A stretch of 64,000 bases of DNA from Gracilibacillus caseinilyticus (GTDB lineage Bacteria > Bacillota > Bacilli > Bacillales > Amphibacillaceae), in NCBI RefSeq assembly GCF_022919115.1, contig NZ_CP095072.1, positions 3,348,001 through 3,412,000 of the forward strand, given 5' to 3'. Shown piece after piece: positions 3,908 to 20,296 of this stretch. How positions within the stretch are numbered: position 1 is the stretch's first letter; each line of letters begins with the position of its first letter. Under the pieces are notes generated by a model. That model had not been told where the DNA came from and made no database searches. It worked only from the letters and a program-made list of their open reading frames with translations. The position numbers were made by a program, and so were the translations under genes.

Positions 3908-5371
3908 ATGGCTAAAAAGAAACAAGCAATTAATCGTTCCATAGAAAAGAACCAGGAATTTCTTAAAACAAAGCTGGGAATTGGTGTATCCTTTGATGTC
4001 GGTTTCCGAGAATTAACGATTTTAAAGAAAAAAGTGCAACTGTATTATGTTACAGGATTAGTAGACACCCAATACGTCATCGAAGTAATTAAGAAACTCA
4101 TCTCTGTGAATGATAACGAGAATGTACATTCTGATCTATATGATGAAATAAATAATCGCATTGTTCACCAGCAGGTCGAGAAGAAGAAAACGATGGATGA
4201 AGCTGTTGATCAGTTATTGTCTGGCCTGCTGGTAGTATTTGCTGAAGGAGAAGAAGAATGCTTTATTGTCGATGTTCGTTCGTATCCTGGAAGACAACCG
4301 CAAGAACCGGATACCGAAAAAGTAGTCCGGGGGTCTCGAGATGGATATACCGAGAATATAGTAGAAAATACTGCATTGACAAGAAGAAGGATACGAGATG
4401 AACGACTGAGAAATGAGATGATGCAAGTTGGGGAACGTTCAAAAACGGATGTATGTATTTGTTATTTACAAGATGTTGCTGATCAAAATCTTGTAGATTT
4501 ATTGAAAAATGAATTAGATCAAATTGATGTAGATGGGATTTCGATGGCAGATAAAACGATTGAAGAATTTTTAGTTCATCAAGGGATAAATCCTTATCCG
4601 CTCGTACGCTATACGGAAAGACCGGATGTTGCGGCAACTCACTTGTTTGAAGGTCATGTTATTATTATGGTGGATACGTCTCCGAGTATGATAATTACGC
4701 CGACTACATATTTTCATCATGTGCAGCATGCAGAGGAATATCGAGAATCTCCGTCGGTTGGAACGTTTGTACGATGGATTCGGTTTGTTGGGATTTTTGC
4801 ATCATTGTTTTTGTTACCACTTTGGATGTTACTCGTGCTAGATCCATCACTGCTGCCGGAAAAATTACAATTTATTGGACCGAATGAAACGGGTAACGTC
4901 CCCATTATTGTCCAAATTCTACTTGCGGATATCGGGATAGAGTTTCTGCGAATGGCCGCTATCCATACACCGACACCTTTGTCAACAGCTATGGGCTTAA
5001 TCGCGGCTGTATTGATCGGTCAAATAGCCATTGAAGTGGGGTTATTTAGTGCAGAAGTTATTCTTTATGTATCAATAGCGGCGATTGGTTCTTTTGCTAC
5101 TCCCAGTTATGAATTAAGTGTTGCCAATAAAATGATGAGAATATTGCTAGTAATCATCACTTTTATATTCCAAATTAAAGGGTTTGTTATTGGCAGTACT
5201 GCTTATATCTTATTGTTGGCTGCAACAAGATCGTTACAGACACCTTATTTATGGCCGTTCATCCCATTTAATGATAAAGCTATTTGGCAAATTCTATTTC
5301 GTGTTGCAGTACCTTTATCGAAGACACGGCCAAGTATTGTAAAGCCGCAGAATAATCGAAAACAAACTTGA
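3908..5371 (+). CDS. spoVAF: SpoVAF, GerA-family spore membrane protein
   Basis: Member of the GerA A-subunit family; SpoVAF works with the spore germinant receptor and SpoVA apparatus in the inner spore membrane. The 487 residues comprise a long soluble N-terminal part, including the family-typical DVRSYPGRQPQEPDTE and a later stretch VRYTERPDVAATHLFEGHV, followed by a C-terminal membrane domain of about five helices. ATG at 3908 was chosen because GAAGGAG lies seven bases upstream; the open frame further upstream overlaps spoVAB. It is last in the operon, next to lysA as in B. subtilis. Confidence 0.92.
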   Translation: MAKKKQAINRSIEKNQEFLKTKLGIGVSFDVGFRELTILKKKVQLYYVTGLVDTQYVIEVIKKLISVNDNENVHSDLYDEINNRIVHQQVEKKKTMDEAVDQLLSGLLVVFAEGEEECFIVDVRSYPGRQPQEPDTEKVVRGSRDGYTENIVENTALTRRRIRDERLRNEMMQVGERSKTDVCICYLQDVADQNLVDLLKNELDQIDVDGISMADKTIEEFLVHQGINPYPLVRYTERPDVAATHLFEGHVIIMVDTSPSMIITPTTYFHHVQHAEEYRESPSVGTFVRWIRFVGIFASLFLLPLWMLLVLDPSLLPEKLQFIGPNETGNVPIIVQILLADIGIEFLRMAAIHTPTPLSTAMGLIAAVLIGQIAIEVGLFSAEVILYVSIAAIGSFATPSYELSVANKMMRILLVIITFIFQIKGFVIGSTAYILLLAATRSLQTPYLWPFIPFNDKAIWQILFRVAVPLSKTRPSIVKPQNNRKQT

Positions 5372-5460
5372 TCTTGTAGAAATAATACTTGAAGAAATGA
5401 CTTCCCTGTGATAAATTATCTTTATACTTTGTTACATTTTGTAGAAATGGGAATGGTCTC

Positions 5461-5507
5461 ATCCCTTGTCTACCTGTCTTGCAGAAAAGACGGGGATAAG
5501 GGATTTT
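5461..5507 (+). terminator. Terminator after spoVAF
   Basis: ATCCCTTGTC at 5461 pairs with GATAAGGGAT ending near 5504, with one mismatch, enclosing a second stem formed by CCTGTCTT and AAGACGG; a T-rich tract follows. Confidence 0.75.
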
Positions 5508-5551
5508 TGTTTGACAAATGGCTATAGCAGCTAATGGCAGGTGAGGTGAAA

Positions 5552-6853
5552 ATGATGATACAACCGTTTACAGCAATTCATAATAATCAATTAACCATCG
5601 CTGGTATTGATGCAGTGGAATTAACGAAGAAATATGGCACTCCATTATTTGTGTATGATGTGGAAAAAATCCGACAAAATGCTAGAGCATTTGTAAGTAC
5701 ATTTAAAAAACATGGGATTAACGCACAAGTTGCATATGCGAGTAAAGCCTTCTCTTCTGTTGCGATGGTGCAAATTGCTAAACAGGAGAATTTAAGTCTT
5801 GATGTTGTTTCACAAGGTGAATTGTATACGGCAATTCAGGCAGAATTTCCTGTAGAAAAAATACATATGCACGGAAATAATAAAAGTTTCGATGAGATAT
5901 CGATGGCAGTTGAATACAATATTGGTTGTGTAGTAGTTGATAATTTTCATGAAATTGAATTATTGGCACATATTTTAGAAGAACAACAACGTGAAATGGA
6001 CGTTCTCATTCGAGTTACACCAGGAATCGAAGCACATACACATGATTACATTCTGACCGGCAATGAAGATTCTAAGTTTGGTTTTGATTTGACGAATGGG
6101 CAGGCAGAAGAGGCGCTTCAACGGTTACGTCAGATTGACCGCATTCATGTTAAAGGATTACATTGTCATATCGGTTCACAAATATTTGAAACAGACGGTT
6201 TTACAATGGCTATTGAAAGGTTATTTCATACGCTAAAGGTTTGGAAAGATCGTCATCATTTTGAATCAGAGGTTGTCAATCTGGGTGGTGGTTTTGGCAT
6301 TAGATATACAAAGGAAGATGATCCACTTCCGCACCCAGCATACGTAGAAGCCTTAATTACCAAAGTCAAAGAAGAAATAGACCAGTACGATATGGCTTTC
6401 CCGGAAATTTGGATTGAACCAGGCAGATCGATAGTAGGAGACGCTGGAGTAACCTTATATACAATCGGATCTATTAAAGAAATTCCAAACGTCCGTAAAT
6501 ACGTTTCCGTAGACGGTGGGATGACTGACAACCTGCGTCCAGCGCTATACCAGGCTAAATATGAAGCCGTTATTGCCAACAAAGTAAATGGAACAGATGA
6601 AGAGGAAGTTTCGATAGCGGGTAAATGTTGTGAGTCGGGTGATATGTTAATATGGGATATAACCTTACCAAAGGTAGAGCCAAATGATATTTTGGCTGTT
6701 TTTTCAACAGGTGCCTATGGGTACTCCATGTCCAACCATTATAATCGATTTCCAAAGCCGGCTGTTGTTTTTGTCGAGAATGGTGAGGATAAATTAGTTG
6801 TACAACGAGAATCATATAAAGACATGACCCAAAATGATTTATCATACGAATAG
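5552..6853 (+). CDS. lysA: Diaminopimelate decarboxylase
   Basis: PLP-dependent fold-III decarboxylase that converts meso-diaminopimelate to L-lysine, the last step of lysine synthesis. The PLP lysine is in AYASKAF at residue 65, the glycine-rich phosphate-binding loop is GGGFG, the substrate and PLP-binding EPGRS follows, and CESGDM lies near the C-terminus. ATG at 5552 is preferred to 5534 because GGTGAGGTG sits at 5540-5548; this gives 433 residues. It follows spoVAF as in B. subtilis. No lysine riboswitch is recognisable in the 180 bases upstream. Confidence 0.96.
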   Translation: MMIQPFTAIHNNQLTIAGIDAVELTKKYGTPLFVYDVEKIRQNARAFVSTFKKHGINAQVAYASKAFSSVAMVQIAKQENLSLDVVSQGELYTAIQAEFPVEKIHMHGNNKSFDEISMAVEYNIGCVVVDNFHEIELLAHILEEQQREMDVLIRVTPGIEAHTHDYILTGNEDSKFGFDLTNGQAEEALQRLRQIDRIHVKGLHCHIGSQIFETDGFTMAIERLFHTLKVWKDRHHFESEVVNLGGGFGIRYTKEDDPLPHPAYVEALITKVKEEIDQYDMAFPEIWIEPGRSIVGDAGVTLYTIGSIKEIPNVRKYVSVDGGMTDNLRPALYQAKYEAVIANKVNGTDEEEVSIAGKCCESGDMLIWDITLPKVEPNDILAVFSTGAYGYSMSNHYNRFPKPAVVFVENGEDKLVVQRESYKDMTQNDLSYE

Positions 6854-6865
6854 GAGGAAAGAATA

Positions 6866-7300
6866 ATGAAACAGGCAGTAATTGAATTTGAAAATGGAGA
6901 AAAAATTGTAATTGAAATGTATGACGAGGCAGCTCCGAATACCGTTGCAAACTTTGAAAAACTTGCGAATGAAAAATTTTATGATGGGGTTGTTTTCCAC
7001 CGCGTAATCCCTGGATTTGTTGCACAAGGCGGAGACCCAACTGGAACAGGTATGGGTGGACCAGGATATACGATCAAATGTGAAACAGAAGGAAATCCTC
7101 ATAAGCATGTTGCTGGTACATTATCAATGGCACATGCTGGAAAAGATACGGGTGGAAGTCAATTTTTTCTTGTTCATGAACCACAGCCGCATTTAGACGG
7201 TGTACATACTGTATTTGGCCAAGTAATCGAAGGTATGGATACGGTTCTTCGTATTCGTCAAGGTGATGCGATGCAGACTGTTCGAGTGACAGAAGTATAA
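6866..7300 (+). CDS. ppiB: Peptidyl-prolyl cis-trans isomerase, cyclophilin type
   Basis: Cyclophilin-fold isomerase that catalyses proline cis-trans isomerisation, probably cytoplasmic since no signal peptide is present. The 144-residue single domain contains the core motifs [28 protein letters not shown] and GGSQFFL, including the catalytic arginine of FHRV. AGGAGGAAAG precedes the start by an ideal distance. Placed 12 bases after lysA, the same neighbour as in B. subtilis, so it may be co-transcribed. Confidence 0.96.
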
Positions 7301-13021: not shown

Positions 13022-13087
13022 TTGTTGAATATCTGTCACATTTTCGACATGAAGTAAATGGTACAATGAGCGAAGGGAGTGAGTCGG

Positions 13088-13669
13088 ATGAGTAAGATTG
13101 AACAGGCAAAACAAAACAAGAAATCAAAAAAACGAAATCGTTTTATTTTTCGGACGTCCATCCTGATTGTGTTGTTTGGTGCGCTTCTTTTCGCAGTTGT
13201 TTCCAATTTAACAGCAGAAGAAGACGCTGTTGTAGAAGTGGGTGATCAGGCACCAGATTTTCAATTAGAGCAGATAGCAACAGATGATTCATCAACGATT
13301 CAGTTGTCTGATCTAAGGGGAAAAGGTGTCATGCTGAATTTCTGGGGAACCTGGTGTAAACCATGTGAAAAAGAAATGCCTTACATGGAGCAATTGTACC
13401 CGGAATACAAGGAAAAAGGCGTCGAAATACTTGCGGTGAATTTAGATTCAACGAAGTTACCGGTACAGAATTTCGTCGATCAGTATAACCTTACTTTTCC
13501 TATATTATATGATGAACATACCGAAGTATTAGATACTTATGGAATCAAGCCTATACCGACAACCTATTTCATTGACGAAAATGGTATCGTTGTCGAACGC
13601 GTATTAGGTGGACTGACAGTAGAAAAATTACAAGGGTATCTAGATCAGATAGTTCCAGAAGGATCGTGA
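13088..13669 (+). CDS. resA: Thiol-disulfide oxidoreductase ResA
   Basis: Membrane-anchored extracytoplasmic thioredoxin that reduces apocytochrome c cysteines before haem attachment. A basic N-terminus is followed by one membrane helix (about residues 21-40) and a thioredoxin domain with active site WCKPC (cysteines 90 and 93; CEPC in B. subtilis) and the cis-proline loop IKPIPTTYF. ATG at 13088 has AGGGAG eight bases upstream; GTG at 13079 overlaps that site. First gene of resA-resB-resC-resD. Confidence 0.95.
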   Translation: MSKIEQAKQNKKSKKRNRFIFRTSILIVLFGALLFAVVSNLTAEEDAVVEVGDQAPDFQLEQIATDDSSTIQLSDLRGKGVMLNFWGTWCKPCEKEMPYMEQLYPEYKEKGVEILAVNLDSTKLPVQNFVDQYNLTFPILYDEHTEVLDTYGIKPIPTTYFIDENGIVVERVLGGLTVEKLQGYLDQIVPEGS

Positions 13670-13678
13670 GGGGTTTGA

Positions 13679-15301
13679 ATGAATACATTAAAATGTACTA
13701 CATGTGGTCATGTTAATAACGAAGGGACGACGATTTGCGAAAAATGTGGAAAACCGTTAGATAATGACCAAAATGGAAAGTTATTAAATATGCGCTATGA
13801 TGGAACAGCGATTCGTTCAAAGACGAGAAACCGGTCAATTGTTGATAAGATTTGGAATTTCTTTTCGTCTGTTAAAGTTGGGGTTACCTTAATTGCGATT
13901 ACGCTCGTTGCATCCGCTTTAGGTACGATCTACCCACAGCAGATGTACATTCCACAAAATGTGGATCCTGCTGTTCACTATGAGGATCAGTATGGAATTA
14001 CCGGGCAAATTTACTATCAGTTAGGGTTTCATAACTTATACGGGTCCTGGTGGTACCTTATCCTGGTAGCGCTTATTGGTATTTCTATTTTTATCGTCAG
14101 TATTGACAGAGGTGTGCCGTTATTTAAAGCGTTAAAGAATCAGGCAATAAAACGGCATTTGCACTTTTTGAAAAGACAAAAGTATTTCGTGGAAAACACT
14201 GATGTATCAGAACAAGATAGAACAGCTTTTATTCAAAACTTAAAAAAACATCGTTATAAAATAACGGAAAAGAACGGCCACCTTTTAGCGGAGAAGGGAC
14301 GTTTTTCCCGCTGGGGTCCGTATGTCAATCATTTAGGACTTATTATTTTTCTAATTGGGACGTTATTTCGATTTGTACCGTTTATGTATGTCGATGATTT
14401 TGTGTGGGTTAGAGAAGGGGAAACAGCTGTTATTCCAGGTACAAACCAGCAATATTACATAAAAAATGAAGAGTTTATCTTTGAAACATATGGAGAGTCA
14501 GATGAAGACGATATCTTTCAGGCTGCATTAGATCGAACCAATGGTCCAATACCAAAACACTTTGAAACGAGGGCGACACTTTATGAAAATGTGTCAACAG
14601 ATGTGGTTGGTTCAGAACCAGAGCTGAAGGAGGTTAAAAGCGGTGAAATCATCGTAAATGAACCGATGAAAATCAATGGTCTTGGCCTATATCAGGACAG
14701 TTATCAAATGAACGAATTTCAGACAATGACTTTTAAACTTCATCGAGCGGATGATGAAGAGGAAGAAGCTATTGTTGAATTTACGGTTGATTTAACCGAT
14801 CCTCAGCGAGAATACACATTTGATAATGGGTATACGATAGAGTTAAACAAATATTATCCAGAATATGAACTTAATAATGGACAGCCACGCTCTGTATCGA
14901 ATTATCCACGTAATCCCGGTTTTGTCTTTTTTGTCAAAGGGCCTGATATAGAAGAACAAGAAGCTAGTTTCCTTGCAATTGGACAAAATATTCCTTCTGG
15001 GGATAATCAATATAAGTTAGGTTTAGCAGATTTCACGGTACGTGATGTTAGCGGATTAAATGTAAAGAAAGATTTAACTTTACCAATACTAGGAGTTGGC
15101 GCTTTCATATTTATGATCGGTGTAATCCAAGGGATGTATTGGCAGCATCGCCGAATTTGGATTCATCCGGATGATAATAGTTTATATGTTGCCTGTCATA
15201 CGAATAAGAACTGGTTTGGTTTTACAAGAGAGTTCGAGAAAATGATAAACGAAACCAACCTGAAAATGATTGAGGACCAAGAAACGAAAGAAAAAGAATA
15301 A
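13679..15301 (+). CDS. resB: Cytochrome c biogenesis protein ResB
   Basis: Large component of the system II cytochrome c synthase, which with ResC moves haem across the membrane and attaches it to apocytochromes. The 540 residues begin with a short zinc-ribbon-like segment, cysteines 6, 9, 20 and 23, also present in B. subtilis ResB. Membrane helices follow near IWNFFSSVKVGVTLIAITLV and VNHLGLIIFLIGTLFRF, then a large extracytoplasmic loop and a last helix near LPILGVGAFIFMIGVIQG. It starts nine bases after resA with GAGGGG upstream. Confidence 0.96.
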   Translation: MNTLKCTTCGHVNNEGTTICEKCGKPLDNDQNGKLLNMRYDGTAIRSKTRNRSIVDKIWNFFSSVKVGVTLIAITLVASALGTIYPQQMYIPQNVDPAVHYEDQYGITGQIYYQLGFHNLYGSWWYLILVALIGISIFIVSIDRGVPLFKALKNQAIKRHLHFLKRQKYFVENTDVSEQDRTAFIQNLKKHRYKITEKNGHLLAEKGRFSRWGPYVNHLGLIIFLIGTLFRFVPFMYVDDFVWVREGETAVIPGTNQQYYIKNEEFIFETYGESDEDDIFQAALDRTNGPIPKHFETRATLYENVSTDVVGSEPELKEVKSGEIIVNEPMKINGLGLYQDSYQMNEFQTMTFKLHRADDEEEEAIVEFTVDLTDPQREYTFDNGYTIELNKYYPEYELNNGQPRSVSNYPRNPGFVFFVKGPDIEEQEASFLAIGQNIPSGDNQYKLGLADFTVRDVSGLNVKKDLTLPILGVGAFIFMIGVIQGMYWQHRRIWIHPDDNSLYVACHTNKNWFGFTREFEKMINETNLKMIEDQETKEKE

Positions 15302-15330: not shown

Positions 15331-16518
15331 ATGGATTTATTGTCGTTAAGCAGCGGCCTGTTATATAGTGCGTTTGTTATTTATTTGATCGCAACAGTAC
15401 TCTTCGCAGCAACGATTAGAGACAAGCGGAAAGAAAAAGAATTCCGGTTCATAAACAAACTCGCGATCGGAGTTACGATATTGGGTTTTGTTGCACAAAT
15501 CGGTTATTTCTTCACGCGTTGGGTAGCCAGTAAGCATGCACCAGTTAGTAATATGTTTGAGTTTGTTACATTTTTTGGTATGATGCTCGTCTTGGCATTT
15601 ATTATCCTGTACTTTATCTATCGTATTGATTTATTAGGATTATTTGCATTACCGATAGCTTTACTGGTTATCGCCTATGCAAGTATGTATCCGAGAGAAA
15701 TATCGCCATTGGTACCTTCCTTAAAGAGTCATTGGCTTTATATCCATGTTACAACAGTTGCGCTAGGGGAAGCGATTCTAGCAGTCAGTTTTATTGCTGG
15801 TATGATCTACCTGATTAGACAGATAGATCAAACAAAATCTACTGCAAGAACCAAGTGGCTCGAAATCATCATGTACTCCATTTTTGCCACTATAGGATTT
15901 GTAATGATTACTACTACTTTTTCAGCAATGGACTATCATGCGTCATTTTCCTATGTTGTTGATGAAAATGAAACAACCTTGGATTATGAATTACCAGCGT
16001 TGTTTGGACCTGGAAACGGAGAGCTATTAACTGAAAATCGAATGGATGCATTATTACAGACACCGGAATGGATGCATGGTGCAGAAGCGCCACGAAAATT
16101 AAACACGTTAGTCTGGTCATTGTTAATTGGATTAGTCTTATATTTATTGGCTAGAATAATATTACGAAAACGAGTAGCTGCGGCAATACAACCTCTTCTT
16201 AGAAAAGCAAATCCTGAATTATTAGATGAGGTTGGTTATCGCGCTATCACCATCGGTTTTCCTGTCTTTACACTTGGTGGATTGATTTTCGCATCCATTT
16301 GGGCACAAGAGGCTTGGAATCGTTATTGGGGATGGGATCCGAAAGAGGTGTGGGCACTCATAACCTGGTTCTTTTATGCTATATTCTTGCATCTCCGTTT
16401 GTCTCGAGGCTGGCATGGTGAGCGATCTGCATGGTTAGCTGTGGTGGGTTTTGCAATAATTATGTTTAACTTAATCGTGGTTAATCTCGTACTAGCTGGT
16501 TTGCATTCTTACGCATAA
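15331..16518 (+). CDS. resC: Cytochrome c biogenesis protein ResC (CcsA type)
   Basis: Polytopic haem-handling protein of system II cytochrome c biogenesis, partner of ResB. About eight membrane helices are visible in 395 residues. The tryptophan-rich WWD haem-binding signature is seen as [20 protein letters not shown], with conserved histidines around SHWLYIHV and [24 protein letters not shown] precedes the start by eight bases. Immediately followed by the response regulator resD after 80 bases. Confidence 0.96.
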
Positions 16519-16597: not shown

Positions 16598-17317
16598 ATG
16601 GAAACAGAAGGTAACAAAGTATTAGTAGTAGATGATGAGGAAAGAATTCGTCGTTTATTAAAAATGTACCTTGAACGAGAAGGGTATGAGATAGAAGAAG
16701 CAGAAGACGGCGAACAAGCATTAAAATTAGCTTTATCAAATGATTATGATGTCATATTACTCGATTTGATGATGCCTGGCAAAGACGGGCTTGAGGTTTG
16801 TAAAGAAATACGATTGCATAAAGCAACACCGGTTATGATGTTGACGGCAAAAGGTGAAGAGTTAAATCGAATTCACGGCTTTGAAGCTGGTACTGACGAT
16901 TACATTGTCAAGCCTTTTAGTCCACGTGAAGTAGTATTACGTGTTAAAGCGTTATTAAGAAGGTCCTCTGCTTCAACGAATATCAATCAGTCGACTCGCT
17001 CGAAAGACTTGATTGAATTCCAACATCTCCTCATAGATAATGATGCACATCGTGTGCTAGCAGACAATCAAGAGGTAAGTTTAACACCAAAAGAATATGA
17101 ATTACTCTTATTTCTAGCAAAATCACCGGATAAAGTATTCGAACGAGAAGCTTTATTAAAGGAAGTGTGGAAATATGAATTTTTTGGTGATTTACGAACA
17201 GTCGATACTCATGTAAAGCGACTACGTGAAAAATTAAACAAAGTATCTGCAGAAGCGGCAAAAATGATTGTTACTGTATGGGGTGTCGGTTATAAATTTG
17301 AAGTAACAAAACCGTAA
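16598..17317 (+). CDS. resD: Response regulator ResD
   Basis: OmpR/PhoB-family DNA-binding response regulator; in B. subtilis ResD activates respiration and anaerobic genes, including resABC and cytochrome genes. Receiver domain residues: D12, D13, phosphorylated D56 in LLDLMMPGKDG, and the conserved lysine in IVKPFSPRE. The C-terminal winged helix contains LTPKEYELLLFLAKSPD and TVDTHVKRLREKL. 239 residues. The expected adjacent sensor kinase gene resE is absent; the next feature is a cobalamin riboswitch. Confidence 0.94.
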   Translation: METEGNKVLVVDDEERIRRLLKMYLEREGYEIEEAEDGEQALKLALSNDYDVILLDLMMPGKDGLEVCKEIRLHKATPVMMLTAKGEELNRIHGFEAGTDDYIVKPFSPREVVLRVKALLRRSSASTNINQSTRSKDLIEFQHLLIDNDAHRVLADNQEVSLTPKEYELLLFLAKSPDKVFEREALLKEVWKYEFFGDLRTVDTHVKRLREKLNKVSAEAAKMIVTVWGVGYKFEVTKP

Positions 17318-17325
17318 TAGAAGAT

Positions 17326-17490
17326 TGTTTGATGGTGAGTATACTTAATAGGGAATCTGGTGGAAATCCAGAACTGTCCTCGCAACTGTAAGTGCAAACG
17401 AAACAGCAACAACCACTGTACGCAATATTTGATGTATGGGAAGGTGCTGGAGTAGAGTAAAGCACAAAGTCAGGAGACCTGCCATCTGAC
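17326..17490 (+). ncRNA. Cobalamin (B12) riboswitch
   Basis: The conserved parts of the cobalamin aptamer are all present in order: GATGG (17331-17335) and CCATC (17482-17486) form the closing P1 helix; AGGGAA, GGTGGAAATCC, the CGCAACTGT core and the B12 box GTCAGGAGACCTGCC occupy 17350-17484. Adenosylcobalamin-type ligands would lower expression of the two genes downstream. The element sits in the 280-base gap after resD. Confidence 0.93.
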
Positions 17491-17498
17491 ATGTATTC

Positions 17499-17595
17499 AT
17501 GCTTCGGGGATTAAGCATGTAAAGTAGTGTTTTTCCATATATACATACTTGCAAAATGCTTGGATCCTCAAAGAGTTTACTATTGAGGAGAGAAG
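17499..17595 (+). promoter_or_regulatory. Likely expression platform of the B12 riboswitch
   Basis: Two hairpins follow the aptamer. CATGCTT and AAGCATG enclose an eight-base loop (about 17499-17520). Further on CCTCAA (17566-17571) pairs with TTGAGG (17583-17588), the latter containing the GAGG of the ribosome-binding site TTGAGGAG for the GTG start at 17599. Masking of the ribosome-binding site, hence translational control, is the simplest reading; I cannot show which helix competes with it. Confidence 0.5.
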
Positions 17596-17598
17596 AAT

Positions 17599-17979
17599 GT
17601 GAAACAGTTTAAACAACTATTAATAGTTATCATATTAGCGGTAGTAATGACAGCTTGTGGCAATACGGGAACCAATGTGGCCGAAGGAGATATTAACGTA
17701 TCGCTAACGATAACGGATCAAATTACGAATAAGACAATTAGTGAAGAGTCCTACACGGTAACATCCGGAACAACATTAGAAGACCTTCTGCAGGATAATT
17801 ATGAGGTAGAAGTGACGGAGGATGGATTCTTAACTTCCATTAATGGACATGAGCAAAATGTTGAAGAAAATGAGTATTGGACATATGAAGCAAACGGTGA
17901 AATGGTAAGCGAAGGAATTGCAGATTATGAAGTGCAGGATGAAGATGACATTACTTTTGATCTTCAAATAATAGAGTGA
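17599..17979 (+). CDS. DUF4430 (transcobalamin-like) lipoprotein
   Basis: Predicted extracellular cobalamin-binding lipoprotein. A signal peptide of about 18 residues ends in a lipobox-like VMTAC, so the mature protein would be lipid-anchored at cysteine 20. The rest is a single DUF4430 domain, the fold shared with the C-terminal domain of animal transcobalamin and intrinsic factor; the hallmark pattern NEYWTYEANGEMVSEGIADY followed by DEDDITFDLQ is visible. GTG start with GAGGAG upstream. It is under a cobalamin riboswitch and four bases before an ECF S-component gene, which supports B12 capture. Binding itself is inferred. Confidence 0.8.
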   Translation: MKQFKQLLIVIILAVVMTACGNTGTNVAEGDINVSLTITDQITNKTISEESYTVTSGTTLEDLLQDNYEVEVTEDGFLTSINGHEQNVEENEYWTYEANGEMVSEGIADYEVQDEDDITFDLQIIE

Positions 17980-17983
17980 TTCG

Positions 17984-18487
17984 TTGAATATCTATAAACT
18001 GACATTAATATCCTTATTGGCAGCAGTATGTGTGGCAGGCCGAATTTGTTTTCAATTTTTGCCGAATATTCAGCCGGTTACTGCAATTATTATTGTGGCA
18101 GGAGCATTACTCGGGGTGGTTCCTGCCATTTGTATCGCAATCGTTTCGACTTATGTGACAAATTTGTTTATGGGAATGGGTATATGGACGATTTGGCAGA
18201 TATTTGCATGGTCTATCATCGGTTTACTAGCTGGACTGATCGGGAGGTATGTGCCTGCCAGATATCATCTGGTTATTCTCACAGGATTTAGTGTGCTGGC
18301 GGCTTTTCTTTATGGTTTGGTTCTTAACTTAGGCACCTTCACTTTCTCAGGCAGCTTTTTTGCCTACATGCTGGCAAGCATACCGTTTGACTTGATGCAT
18401 GCAATTGGCAATCTTGTTTTTATGTTGATTTTATATCCCGTAATAAGAAGAGTTTTTCAGCAAAATTTAGAAAAAATAGAGCGATAA
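17984..18487 (+). CDS. ECF transporter S component, probably for cobalamin
   Basis: Membrane substrate-binding subunit of an energy-coupling factor transporter. The 167 residues contain about six hydrophobic helices; the N-terminal LTLISLLAAVCVAGRICFQFLP and the ATPase/T-component interaction style loops fit the ECF S family (DUF6580/CbrT-like groups). It begins with TTG only four bases after the lipoprotein gene, with a weak ribosome-binding site, suggesting coupling. No ecfA or ecfT gene is nearby, so it presumably uses a shared energising module encoded elsewhere. The substrate is inferred from the riboswitch and the transcobalamin-like partner. Confidence 0.8.
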   Translation: MNIYKLTLISLLAAVCVAGRICFQFLPNIQPVTAIIIVAGALLGVVPAICIAIVSTYVTNLFMGMGIWTIWQIFAWSIIGLLAGLIGRYVPARYHLVILTGFSVLAAFLYGLVLNLGTFTFSGSFFAYMLASIPFDLMHAIGNLVFMLILYPVIRRVFQQNLEKIER

Positions 18488-18489
18488 CC

Positions 18490-18520
18490 TACCACAGTGT
18501 AAATGACTGTGGTATTTTTA
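18490..18520 (+). terminator. Terminator of the B12 cassette
   Basis: TACCACAGT (18490-18498) pairs perfectly with ACTGTGGTA (18506-18514), followed by TTTTTATTTT. Confidence 0.88.
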
Positions 18521-18538
18521 TTTTATAGTATAAGTTTT

Positions 18539-18591: not shown

Positions 18592-19134
18592 ATGATGAAG
18601 ACCACATTTGAGGATCTTTATGACAAATACCATCAAGATCTCTTCCAATATATCTTCTACCTGGTTAAGGACAAAGCACAAGCGGAAGACCTTATTCAAG
18701 AAGTTTATATTAAAGTGCTCAGTGCCTATTCTAGCTTTAATGGAGACAGCGCTGAAAAAACCTGGCTTTTTTCCATTGCCAGGCATACTACATTTGATTA
18801 TTTTCGAAAGTTGAAGCGGAAACGCATGAAGATACAAGATTTTTTTAATTGGGAAGATGATGGTGAAAAGTTAACATCAACAATGGAGGAACCGGAAGAT
18901 TCCATACTTCATAATGATGAGATGCATCAAGTCTATCATTGTTTGGATCAATGTACCGTGGATCAGAAGCAGGTCGTTATTCTACGGTACATACAGGAAT
19001 TCTCTATTAAAGAAACAGCAGAAATATTAAAGTGGTCTACCAGCAAAGTGAAAACAACACAACATCGTGCATTAAAAGTTTTGCAAACCTGCATGATGAC
19101 ATCTAGTGAAAAGGAGGATGTTAATCATGAATAA
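18592..19134 (+). CDS. sigX: ECF sigma factor SigX
   Basis: Extracytoplasmic-function sigma factor; in B. subtilis SigX controls cell-envelope functions such as D-alanylation and phosphatidylethanolamine synthesis. Region 2 is visible as DLIQEVYIKVLSAYSSF and TWLFSIARHTTFDYFRKLKR; region 4 as DQKQVVILRYIQEFSIKETAEIL. 180 residues. ATGATG at 18592/18595 with GAGGGGG upstream. It is followed by its anti-sigma factor with an eight-base overlap. In B. subtilis sigX comes right after resE, which supports both the identity and the local synteny. Confidence 0.92.
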   Translation: MMKTTFEDLYDKYHQDLFQYIFYLVKDKAQAEDLIQEVYIKVLSAYSSFNGDSAEKTWLFSIARHTTFDYFRKLKRKRMKIQDFFNWEDDGEKLTSTMEEPEDSILHNDEMHQVYHCLDQCTVDQKQVVILRYIQEFSIKETAEILKWSTSKVKTTQHRALKVLQTCMMTSSEKEDVNHE

Positions 19135-20296
19135 AGACAAGGATTATGAAACACGTTTAAAAGAGCAGTTACGTTCCATGCCTAAAATTAAAGATGAGCG
19201 CACCAAAGAAGAAATATATCGGCAAATACAGCTACAAATGATAGAAAAAGAAGAAGCGAAGCAAAGAAAAAAACGATGGTTTTGGATACCTGCTATTTCA
19301 GCTGTCACTTGTGCACTTCTGGTATTTATAGTGTTTCTTTCACAAGACAGGTTGACACAGTTTGAACAATCTTCTTCACCTTCTGCCTCTGACGAAGCTC
19401 AAATAAGATTTGAGAGTCAGGAAAATTCTATTGAAAGCCGTGATAGTGAAGAAAGTGGACAAATGGAGGAAGCGTCAGAGGAATCAGATAACACGACAGA
19501 GGATAGCGTGCTTCAATATCAGTTGGAAATACTGCCGAAGGAGAAGATTAAAAAACTTGGTTTATTGACCACACCTCCGCAATATGTAGTGCCAATTACT
19601 ATTTCAGAACAAAAAATAAAAGAACCATTCTCATTTAATAAGCTGGGGGACGAAATTGATCTAGCCGTAAATGGCTTACAGGATATCGGATTAAAGCATA
19701 TGACGTTTACTAAAAAGGAGCAAATCGTTGTTGCTTCTGTTCAGCATGATTTTACAATTGAACCTGATACTGCAAGTCAACAGCTGTTCGACCAGTTAAT
19801 GAACCTTATTTTTCAACCATTTAGGGTCAAACAGATACAGTTTGATCAGACAAACGATTTTATCGACCAAATTAATATGGTCGATAACACATATATATTA
19901 AAAGGCTCTGGCACTGTAGTCTATAAGCAATATCGATACAATGCACAAGCTTCAGGCTGGCTCGTTGCTACGAAGGTAGCGCAATTTGATTCAATCGAAA
20001 AAGCGTTGAACGAGATGAAAAAAGCAGAGCCACAGTATCATGTGAAGTCAACTATCCCAAATGATGCAGAAATAAAGGTTAAGCAAGCTGAAGATGATAC
20101 ACTAGAATTACAAATTGTTTCAGCGAAAACAGGTCAAAATCAGAAAACAGTCAACATGATCGAAGCAATTATTGCAACAGCATATTCTTTTGGTTTTCAA
20201 ACCGTACAATTTGATATCGGCTATGAACAAGTGGGCAAATATGATTTAACAAAGCCAGTGCAGACAGACCAGCAAATTAACGTTATTTATCGATAA
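19127..20296 (+). CDS. rsiX: Anti-sigma-X factor RsiX
   Basis: Membrane-spanning anti-sigma factor that holds SigX. The cytoplasmic N-terminus (about 55 residues, rich in charged residues) is followed by one helix near WIPAISAVTCALLVFIVFL, an acidic, serine-rich linker of about 50 residues, and an extracytoplasmic domain with GerMN-like repeats. ATG at 19127 follows AAGGAGG and overlaps the sigX end. The B. subtilis RsiX has the same layout. The long acidic linker is the least conserved-looking part. Confidence 0.88.
   Translation: MNKDKDYETRLKEQLRSMPKIKDERTKEEIYRQIQLQMIEKEEAKQRKKRWFWIPAISAVTCALLVFIVFLSQDRLTQFEQSSSPSASDEAQIRFESQENSIESRDSEESGQMEEASEESDNTTEDSVLQYQLEILPKEKIKKLGLLTTPPQYVVPITISEQKIKEPFSFNKLGDEIDLAVNGLQDIGLKHMTFTKKEQIVVASVQHDFTIEPDTASQQLFDQLMNLIFQPFRVKQIQFDQTNDFIDQINMVDNTYILKGSGTVVYKQYRYNAQASGWLVATKVAQFDSIEKALNEMKKAEPQYHVKSTIPNDAEIKVKQAEDDTLELQIVSAKTGQNQKTVNMIEAIIATAYSFGFQTVQFDIGYEQVGKYDLTKPVQTDQQINVIYR

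Follow-up and report, generated by a model that had tools for sequence, protein, structure and literature searches.

We analyzed a window of 64,000 nucleotides of Gracilibacillus caseinilyticus, i.e., positions 3348001 to 3412000 of contig C1 in genome G000, which is assembled as a single contig of 4.51 Mb. The locus of interest contains, in this order, resA-resB-resC-resD, a cobalamin riboswitch, a gene for a DUF4430 lipoprotein, a gene for an ECF S-component, a terminator, and the pair sigX-rsiX (Table 1).

Table 1. Features of the locus in the window (coordinates in the window) and of the kinase-regulator pair QHK-QRR (coordinates on contig C1 of G000).
Feature	Position	Strand	Evidence
resA, thiol-disulfide oxidoreductase	13079..13669	+	NCBIfam NF002854 (ResA), 251 bits vs cut-off 170
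resB, cytochrome c biogenesis	13679..15301	+	Pfam ResB PF05140, E=7e-84
resC/ccsB, cytochrome c biogenesis	15331..16518	+	TIGR03144 (CcsB), 263 bits vs cut-off 187.6
resD, orphan response regulator of the OmpR family with D56 intact	16598..17317	+	Response_reg and Trans_reg_C
Start point, in relatives, of the resE gene whose deletion is near certain here	17317..17317	+	resE directly 3' of resD in 40/40 and 71/71 loci
Cobalamin riboswitch aptamer	17316..17500	+	RF00174, E=7.2e-27, 110.7 bits vs gathering score 31.5
7-bp inverted repeat over the likely RBS of the DUF4430 gene; a potential but unsupported expression platform	17566..17589	+	Sequence inspection
DUF4430 lipoprotein, probable corrinoid-binding protein	17599..17979	+	PF14478, E=7e-19; TACG lipobox
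ECF S-component, CbrT-like, probable B12 uptake	17984..18487	+	PDB 6fnp chain A, E=4.3e-22
Intrinsic terminator-like hairpin and T-run	18490..18514	+	Terminator scan
sigX	18592..19134	+	Best match NCBIfam SigX NF007220, 234 bits, below cut-off 260
rsiX	19106..20296	+	Named by position
QHK, kinase beside qoxABCD	C1:2510963-2512372		G000
QRR, QHK's own regulator	C1:2510278-2510973		G000

In B. subtilis, the gene of the sensor kinase ResE is located between resD and sigX. Neither the open reading frames of the window nor the family searches revealed a kinase in this interval. A first-pass annotation of this DNA had described the res genes and sigX-rsiX as intact and resE as absent, with the riboswitch, the two genes, and the terminator between resD and sigX. 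The reading frames and family matches agree with the former, and the RF00174 and PF14478 matches, the kinship with CbrT, and the hairpin with each element of the latter. The absence of resE is not an assembly artefact, since the genome is a single contig and the cassette directly follows resD in all 17 Gracilibacillus genomes. The riboswitch overlaps the stop codon of resD by 2 bases. Terminator-like sites are more frequent in the region than in shuffled sequences (8 vs 3.8). RsiX has no match in Pfam or NCBIfam. The sigX-rsiX pair is kept in 16 of the 17 genomes of the genus; in locus L058 (G007, 6494-7109), the sole such genus mate, it is absent between the cassette and ypbB-recQ. In loci L059 and L199 (G001), the frames of resC, EcfS, and rsiX are split, as is that of qoxB, perhaps because of errors in the draft.

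The cassette itself probably serves B12 uptake. Its S-component is related to chain A of PDB 6fnp, which PMC5997447 gives as an ECF-CbrT entry, and its best Pfam matches are ECF S-component families. The DUF4430 protein weakly resembles intrinsic factor (E=0.004), and the aptamer scores above the Rfam gathering threshold. The S-component is thus a sequence relative of that of ECF-CbrT of Lactobacillus delbrueckii, but here it stands under a cobalamin riboswitch, is paired with a DUF4430 lipoprotein, comes after the last of the res genes, and its transport function is predicted. We make no claim on how the riboswitch switches: the segment 17316-17605 folds no better than shuffled sequences do (z -0.49), and the 7-bp inverted repeat is absent from the predicted minimum-energy fold. 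As no terminator-like site separates resD from the cassette in the window, transcription of the res genes may continue into the cassette.

We searched for ResE in 17 Gracilibacillus genomes and 183 other relatives, using the protein of Saliterribacillus persicus (G051) as query with a cut-off of E<=1e-90. It was found in 182 of the 183 relatives and in none of the Gracilibacillus. The one relative without a match, G117, is 80% complete and lacks a ResD match too. In an even draw of 397 genomes across the order, ResE (E<=1e-80) is present in 392, and the five misses (G000, G005, G006, G014, and G016) are all Gracilibacillus. In other words, the sampled species of this salt-loving genus lack one half of a respiration switch that is near-universal in the order. 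The proteins of Gracilibacillus matching the query at E<=1e-40 are other kinases (27-42% identity), the foremost being WalK, PhoR, and QHK, a kinase encoded beside the oxidase operon qoxABCD (see below). In genome G000, HATPase_c is matched 52 times and HisKA 18 times, and a genome-wide search of its kinases found no ResE-class protein. The first-pass annotation had also considered that resE might have moved, an idea that the lack of a ResE-class protein in all 17 genomes contradicts. Among the papers searched, none combines Gracilibacillus and ResD, and the matches listed include nothing on the loss of ResE in the genus, as judged by titles and abstract openings.

The gene order in relatives indicates what happened at the locus. 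In all 40 loci examined from other genera, resE lies directly 3' of resD, and it adjoins resD in the four outgroups G026, G032, G051, and G071. Among 80 named loci, it directly follows resD in the 71 that are not Gracilibacillus (two of them cut by the end of the contig), whereas the nine Gracilibacillus have the DUF4430 gene in its place. These counts of adjacency exclude divergent ResE matches of genera g3, g7, g8, g9, g31, and g37. The order resD-resE-DUF4430-EcfS-sigX-rsiX is found in S. persicus, Aquibacillus rhizosphaerae (G071), and G032, that is, in the three near outgroups whose contig runs on; in the fourth, G026, the contig stops just past resE. Among the 40 loci from other genera mentioned above, the DUF4430 gene follows resE in 27, both cassette genes are present in 24, the full order from resD and resE through the cassette to sigX is conserved in 15, and resE is followed by sigX in 5. 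Only 4 of the 71 named loci outside Gracilibacillus have a cassette gene downstream. Hence, the nearer family is characterized by the cassette, but the order as a whole is not.

The outgroup order implies that the cassette predates the loss and that resE was deleted; judged from these gene orders, both conclusions are close to certain. The first-pass annotation had the cassette take the place of resE, which the same cassette downstream of an intact resE in relatives rules out: it sits exactly where resE should be only because resE is missing. The position of the riboswitch gives the extent of the deletion. In the 13 loci of the genus that have one (13/13), its first base falls anywhere from 4 bases before to 13 bases past the end of resD; in G051, G071, and G032, it lies 50, 79, and -2 bases after resE, respectively. 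Hence, what was deleted is almost exactly the stretch between the stop codon of resD and the riboswitch, and it is near certain from these comparisons that this clean event took place in the ancestor of Gracilibacillus.

The riboswitch is not kept throughout the genus. It is a remnant below threshold in G005 (20 bits, after resD), and no cobalamin riboswitch was found after resD in G004, G006, and G008, which keep the B12 genes (loci L061, L064, L070, and L066, respectively). The gap between resD and the DUF4430 gene is down to 16 bases in G004 and 24 bases in G008, where the cassette genes look as if they were now plain genes of the res operon. Two other arrangements are worth recording: locus L069 (G032, 4479-6943, oriented on resD) keeps resD-resE and the cassette and lacks resABC between rluB and resD, and in locus L180 (Virgibacillus senegalensis), DUF4430-EcfS-sigX seems to be repeated in tandem downstream of resE.

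ResD is present in all 17 Gracilibacillus genomes, and that of the window, encoded beside resABC and made of a receiver and an OmpR-type DNA-binding domain, is 76-98% identical to those of its 16 genus mates. The first helix of the receiver (where kinases dock), the motif around the receiver aspartate D56, and the MLTAKGEE and IVKPFSPREVV stretches, with T83 and K105, are intact in all of them (17/17). Of the positions conserved to at least 95% in 113 ResD from elsewhere, only four (80, 90, 92, and 236) are commonly different in Gracilibacillus, none of them in helix 1. Hence, this is a ResD ortholog outside a ResDE pair, and the first-pass annotation was right to suggest that it may be an orphan, and to describe D56 as intact. 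It shares with the Bacillus ResD-ResE system the order of resABCD, the sequence of ResD, the chemistry of the receiver, the docking helix, and sigX-rsiX downstream, and differs in that none of the 17 genomes has ResE. Orphan response regulators are typical regulators without a linked kinase, according to a review (PMC12471899). Here, in addition, the lost partner is known, the loss is dated to the ancestor of one genus, and ResD shows no decay.

The pace of evolution of ResD gives a similar picture. At matched distances in YpbB, RecQ, or SigX, pairs of ResD within the genus differ less than pairs from other genera, in every bin holding both. Pairs between Gracilibacillus and another genus are more divergent in some bins, most of all at RecQ distances of 0.42-0.48, where receivers differ by 0.278 vs 0.204. 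This may reflect change on the stem branch of the genus. We do not retain the idea that ResD evolved faster after the loss. An apparent excess of about two-fold over ResC within the genus came from outgroup loci mostly picked for their closeness to the ResD of the window, which biases the comparison, and a genus-spread set gave slower or equal change within the genus relative to YpbB, RecQ, and SigX. We also gave no weight to the PKMDG loop of ResD in G006, which resembles the QRR of G000: 23 of 130 ResD have PEM, PEI, or PKM there, and the ResE-bearing locus L091 has the same loop.

From this conservation, we infer that ResD is still in use and still docks a kinase, and that it is likely phosphorylation-dependent. 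The first-pass annotation had left two options, service by another kinase or action without phosphorylation. The conserved docking face and the continued constraint favor the first, without proving it, and make the second less attractive. Under this second option, ResD would act unphosphorylated or through acetyl phosphate, and the loss of resE would just have removed a layer of regulation. B. subtilis ResD can act as an activator independently of phosphorylation, which lends the idea some plausibility. The review PMC12471899 describes orphan regulators as often independent of phosphorylation or using small phosphodonors, and the receiver divergence mentioned above could be a burst that followed the loss. 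Yet, a regulator without a kinase would be free to lose its docking face, whereas helix 1, D56, and the T83 and K105 stretches are intact throughout the genus, within which ResD is not faster than elsewhere. We regard kinase-free action as less likely than not, but as a live rival.

If another kinase serves ResD, QHK is the leading hypothesis. QHK and its regulator QRR are divergent from the oxidase operon, which we read as qoxABCD from the sequences. QHK has a PF18698 domain (the ResE-type sensor domain) followed by HAMP, HisKA, and HATPase domains. It is the only protein of G000 with PF18698; among 14 control genomes, only B. subtilis has this domain, and in G026, G051, and G071 it is found in both ResE and QHK. 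The match falls below the cut-off in the QHK of G004 and G026. We compared six ResE kinase cores with 16 kinases of G000 (15 of the 18 HisKA proteins and one more, with three long ones left out), and that of QHK came closest (mean of 185 bits, vs 172 for PhoR and 156 for WalK).

QHK is found in 16 of the 17 genomes of the genus, and the genome without it (G003) is 73% complete. It is also present, with 55-58% identity, in G026, G031, G051, and G071, where it coexists with ResE. Hence, QHK predates the loss of resE. In a tree of 55 kinase cores, ResE and QHK form separate, fully supported clades whose mutual position is open, and QHK falls outside that of ResE. There is no PAS domain in the QHK of G000 or G006, while the ResE of G051 has one. 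In short, QHK shares with ResE-type kinases PF18698, HAMP, HisKA, and HATPase, and is encoded next to a respiratory oxidase operon, but it lacks PAS, forms a clade of its own, and has its own regulator. By its sequence it is ResE-like in layout but not ResE, and its role in the control of ResD is putative.

In one species, QHK has outlived QRR. Genome G006, a 99% complete draft, encodes QHK in a frame of 464 aa with HAMP, HisKA, and HATPase, and a tblastn search of the site found no trace of QRR beside it. Elsewhere in this genome, the best match to QRR is ResD itself (46%). G006 also lacks an ortholog of qoxB, a 50% relative of QoxB being the only oxidase found. For comparison, QoxB is present with at least 88% identity in 11 of the 13 genomes of the genus searched, G003 and G006 being those without it, and most genomes of the genus still have a QRR for QHK to serve, which speaks against QHK as donor to ResD. 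In locus L205 (G008), QHK is intact, but a frame change close to its N-terminus breaks QRR in two (4280-4402, minus strand). We did not count this as a loss of QRR, as it may be real decay or an error of the draft.

QHK also seems to have changed in its phosphotransfer (DHp) domain. We counted differences at columns that are fixed both across Gracilibacillus, meaning 15 or more of 16 genomes, and across the genomes of four outgroups. QHK has 10 of them, 6 in the 50 fixed DHp columns and 4 in the 125 others (p=0.033 within QHK). WalK and PhoR, used as controls, have none in the DHp (0/59 and 0/51) and three each elsewhere. The DHp of QHK differs from those of these two control kinases with p=7.5e-4, in a test framed after seeing QHK, and the remainder gives p=0.30. 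As the receiver of QRR has only 1 fixed difference in 55 columns, co-evolution with QRR does not readily explain the change. For the direction of change, we took ten distant kinase loci, of which one (G153) gave no row. With the nine others as a guide, the residues at H+9, H+20, and H+30 are derived in Gracilibacillus, the histidine at H+18 is found only there, and the direction is uncertain at H+40 and H+42.

There is no clear net shift of this domain towards ResE when its rows are compared by eye with the consensus. The phospho-histidine of EnvZ is H243. None of the changed residues falls on the helix-1 specificity positions of EnvZ (250, 251, 255, 257, and 258) given in PMC2991266. The same paper reports more non-cognate transfer in an alanine mutant of EnvZ D273. 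The distance of this residue from the histidine equals that of H+30 of QHK, a parallel to which we give no weight since no alignment links helix 2 to that of EnvZ.

We therefore arrive at four steps of unequal strength. The comparison of loci shows a clean deletion of resE in the ancestor of Gracilibacillus, with the cassette already there and playing no part. The conservation of ResD suggests that it would have stayed in full use and under control by phosphorylation. Its phosphate would now come mainly from QHK, which has the same extracytoplasmic sensor domain and no PAS. The presence of QHK before the loss may have made ResE dispensable. Taken as one explanation, deletion, continued use of ResD, and QHK as main donor are tentative, with a little less than an even chance of all being right, and much the same can be said of QHK as the predicted donor considered separately. 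More doubtful, although still a serious option, is a swap of partners: QHK would have taken over ResD in the ancestor, its DHp changing on that branch, and QHK-ResD would be in G006 a newly formed two-component system reading a ResE-type extracytoplasmic signal without PAS input.

For QHK speak its being the sole PF18698 kinase of G000, its core being nearest to ResE, its persistence without QRR in G006, and the change of its DHp. Against it, other kinases have a docking helix closer to that of ResE: among 12 kinases compared over 22 residues from the phospho-histidine, it matches the ResE consensus at 8, vs 12 for the CssS-like kinase at C1:660500, 11 for WalK, 10 for L044, and 9 each for PhoR and L035. 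Among six regulators compared, the receiver of QRR is identical to that of ResD at 52 of 122 positions, fewer than those of WalR (63), PhoP (60), and the L044 regulator (58). In an alternative scenario, the main kinase of ResD would be a different non-cognate one (PhoR, WalK, the one at C1:660500, or one outside the comparison), and QHK would serve only QRR. Besides these better matches of docking helices and receivers, QHK lacks the PAS domain found in PhoR and WalK, and regulatory links between PhoPR and ResDE in B. subtilis are described in the review PMC12471899. But PhoR and WalK have no PF18698 in G000, their own regulators adjoin them, neither has a fixed DHp difference around the loss, and this scenario does not account for why G006 keeps QHK but has no QRR. 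We consider this alternative less likely than QHK, but likewise a live rival. Finally, insertion of the cassette into resE, replacement by it, or a move of resE elsewhere would fit the position of the cassette at the site of B. subtilis resE, but is scarcely credible given the cassette downstream of intact resE in many relatives and the absence of a ResE-class match in the 17 genomes of the genus.

The clean, genus-wide loss of a kinase whose regulator is kept would make partner rewiring testable in nature, beyond engineered mutants, as would a ResE-like kinase outliving its own regulator in one species. It also raises the question of whether PAS-based sensing is dispensable for the function of ResD. 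Two further observations concern the other kinases. PhoR of the genus and its neighbors (L032 and L226-L244) is about 459 aa long, and in G000 it has PAS, HisKA, and HATPase domains and, by Pfam, no extracytoplasmic sensor domain. At L044 (G000:C1:4481178-4481841), HisKA lies in a frame of 312 aa and HATPase in a different one of 99 aa, i.e., either a broken kinase gene or a sequencing error.
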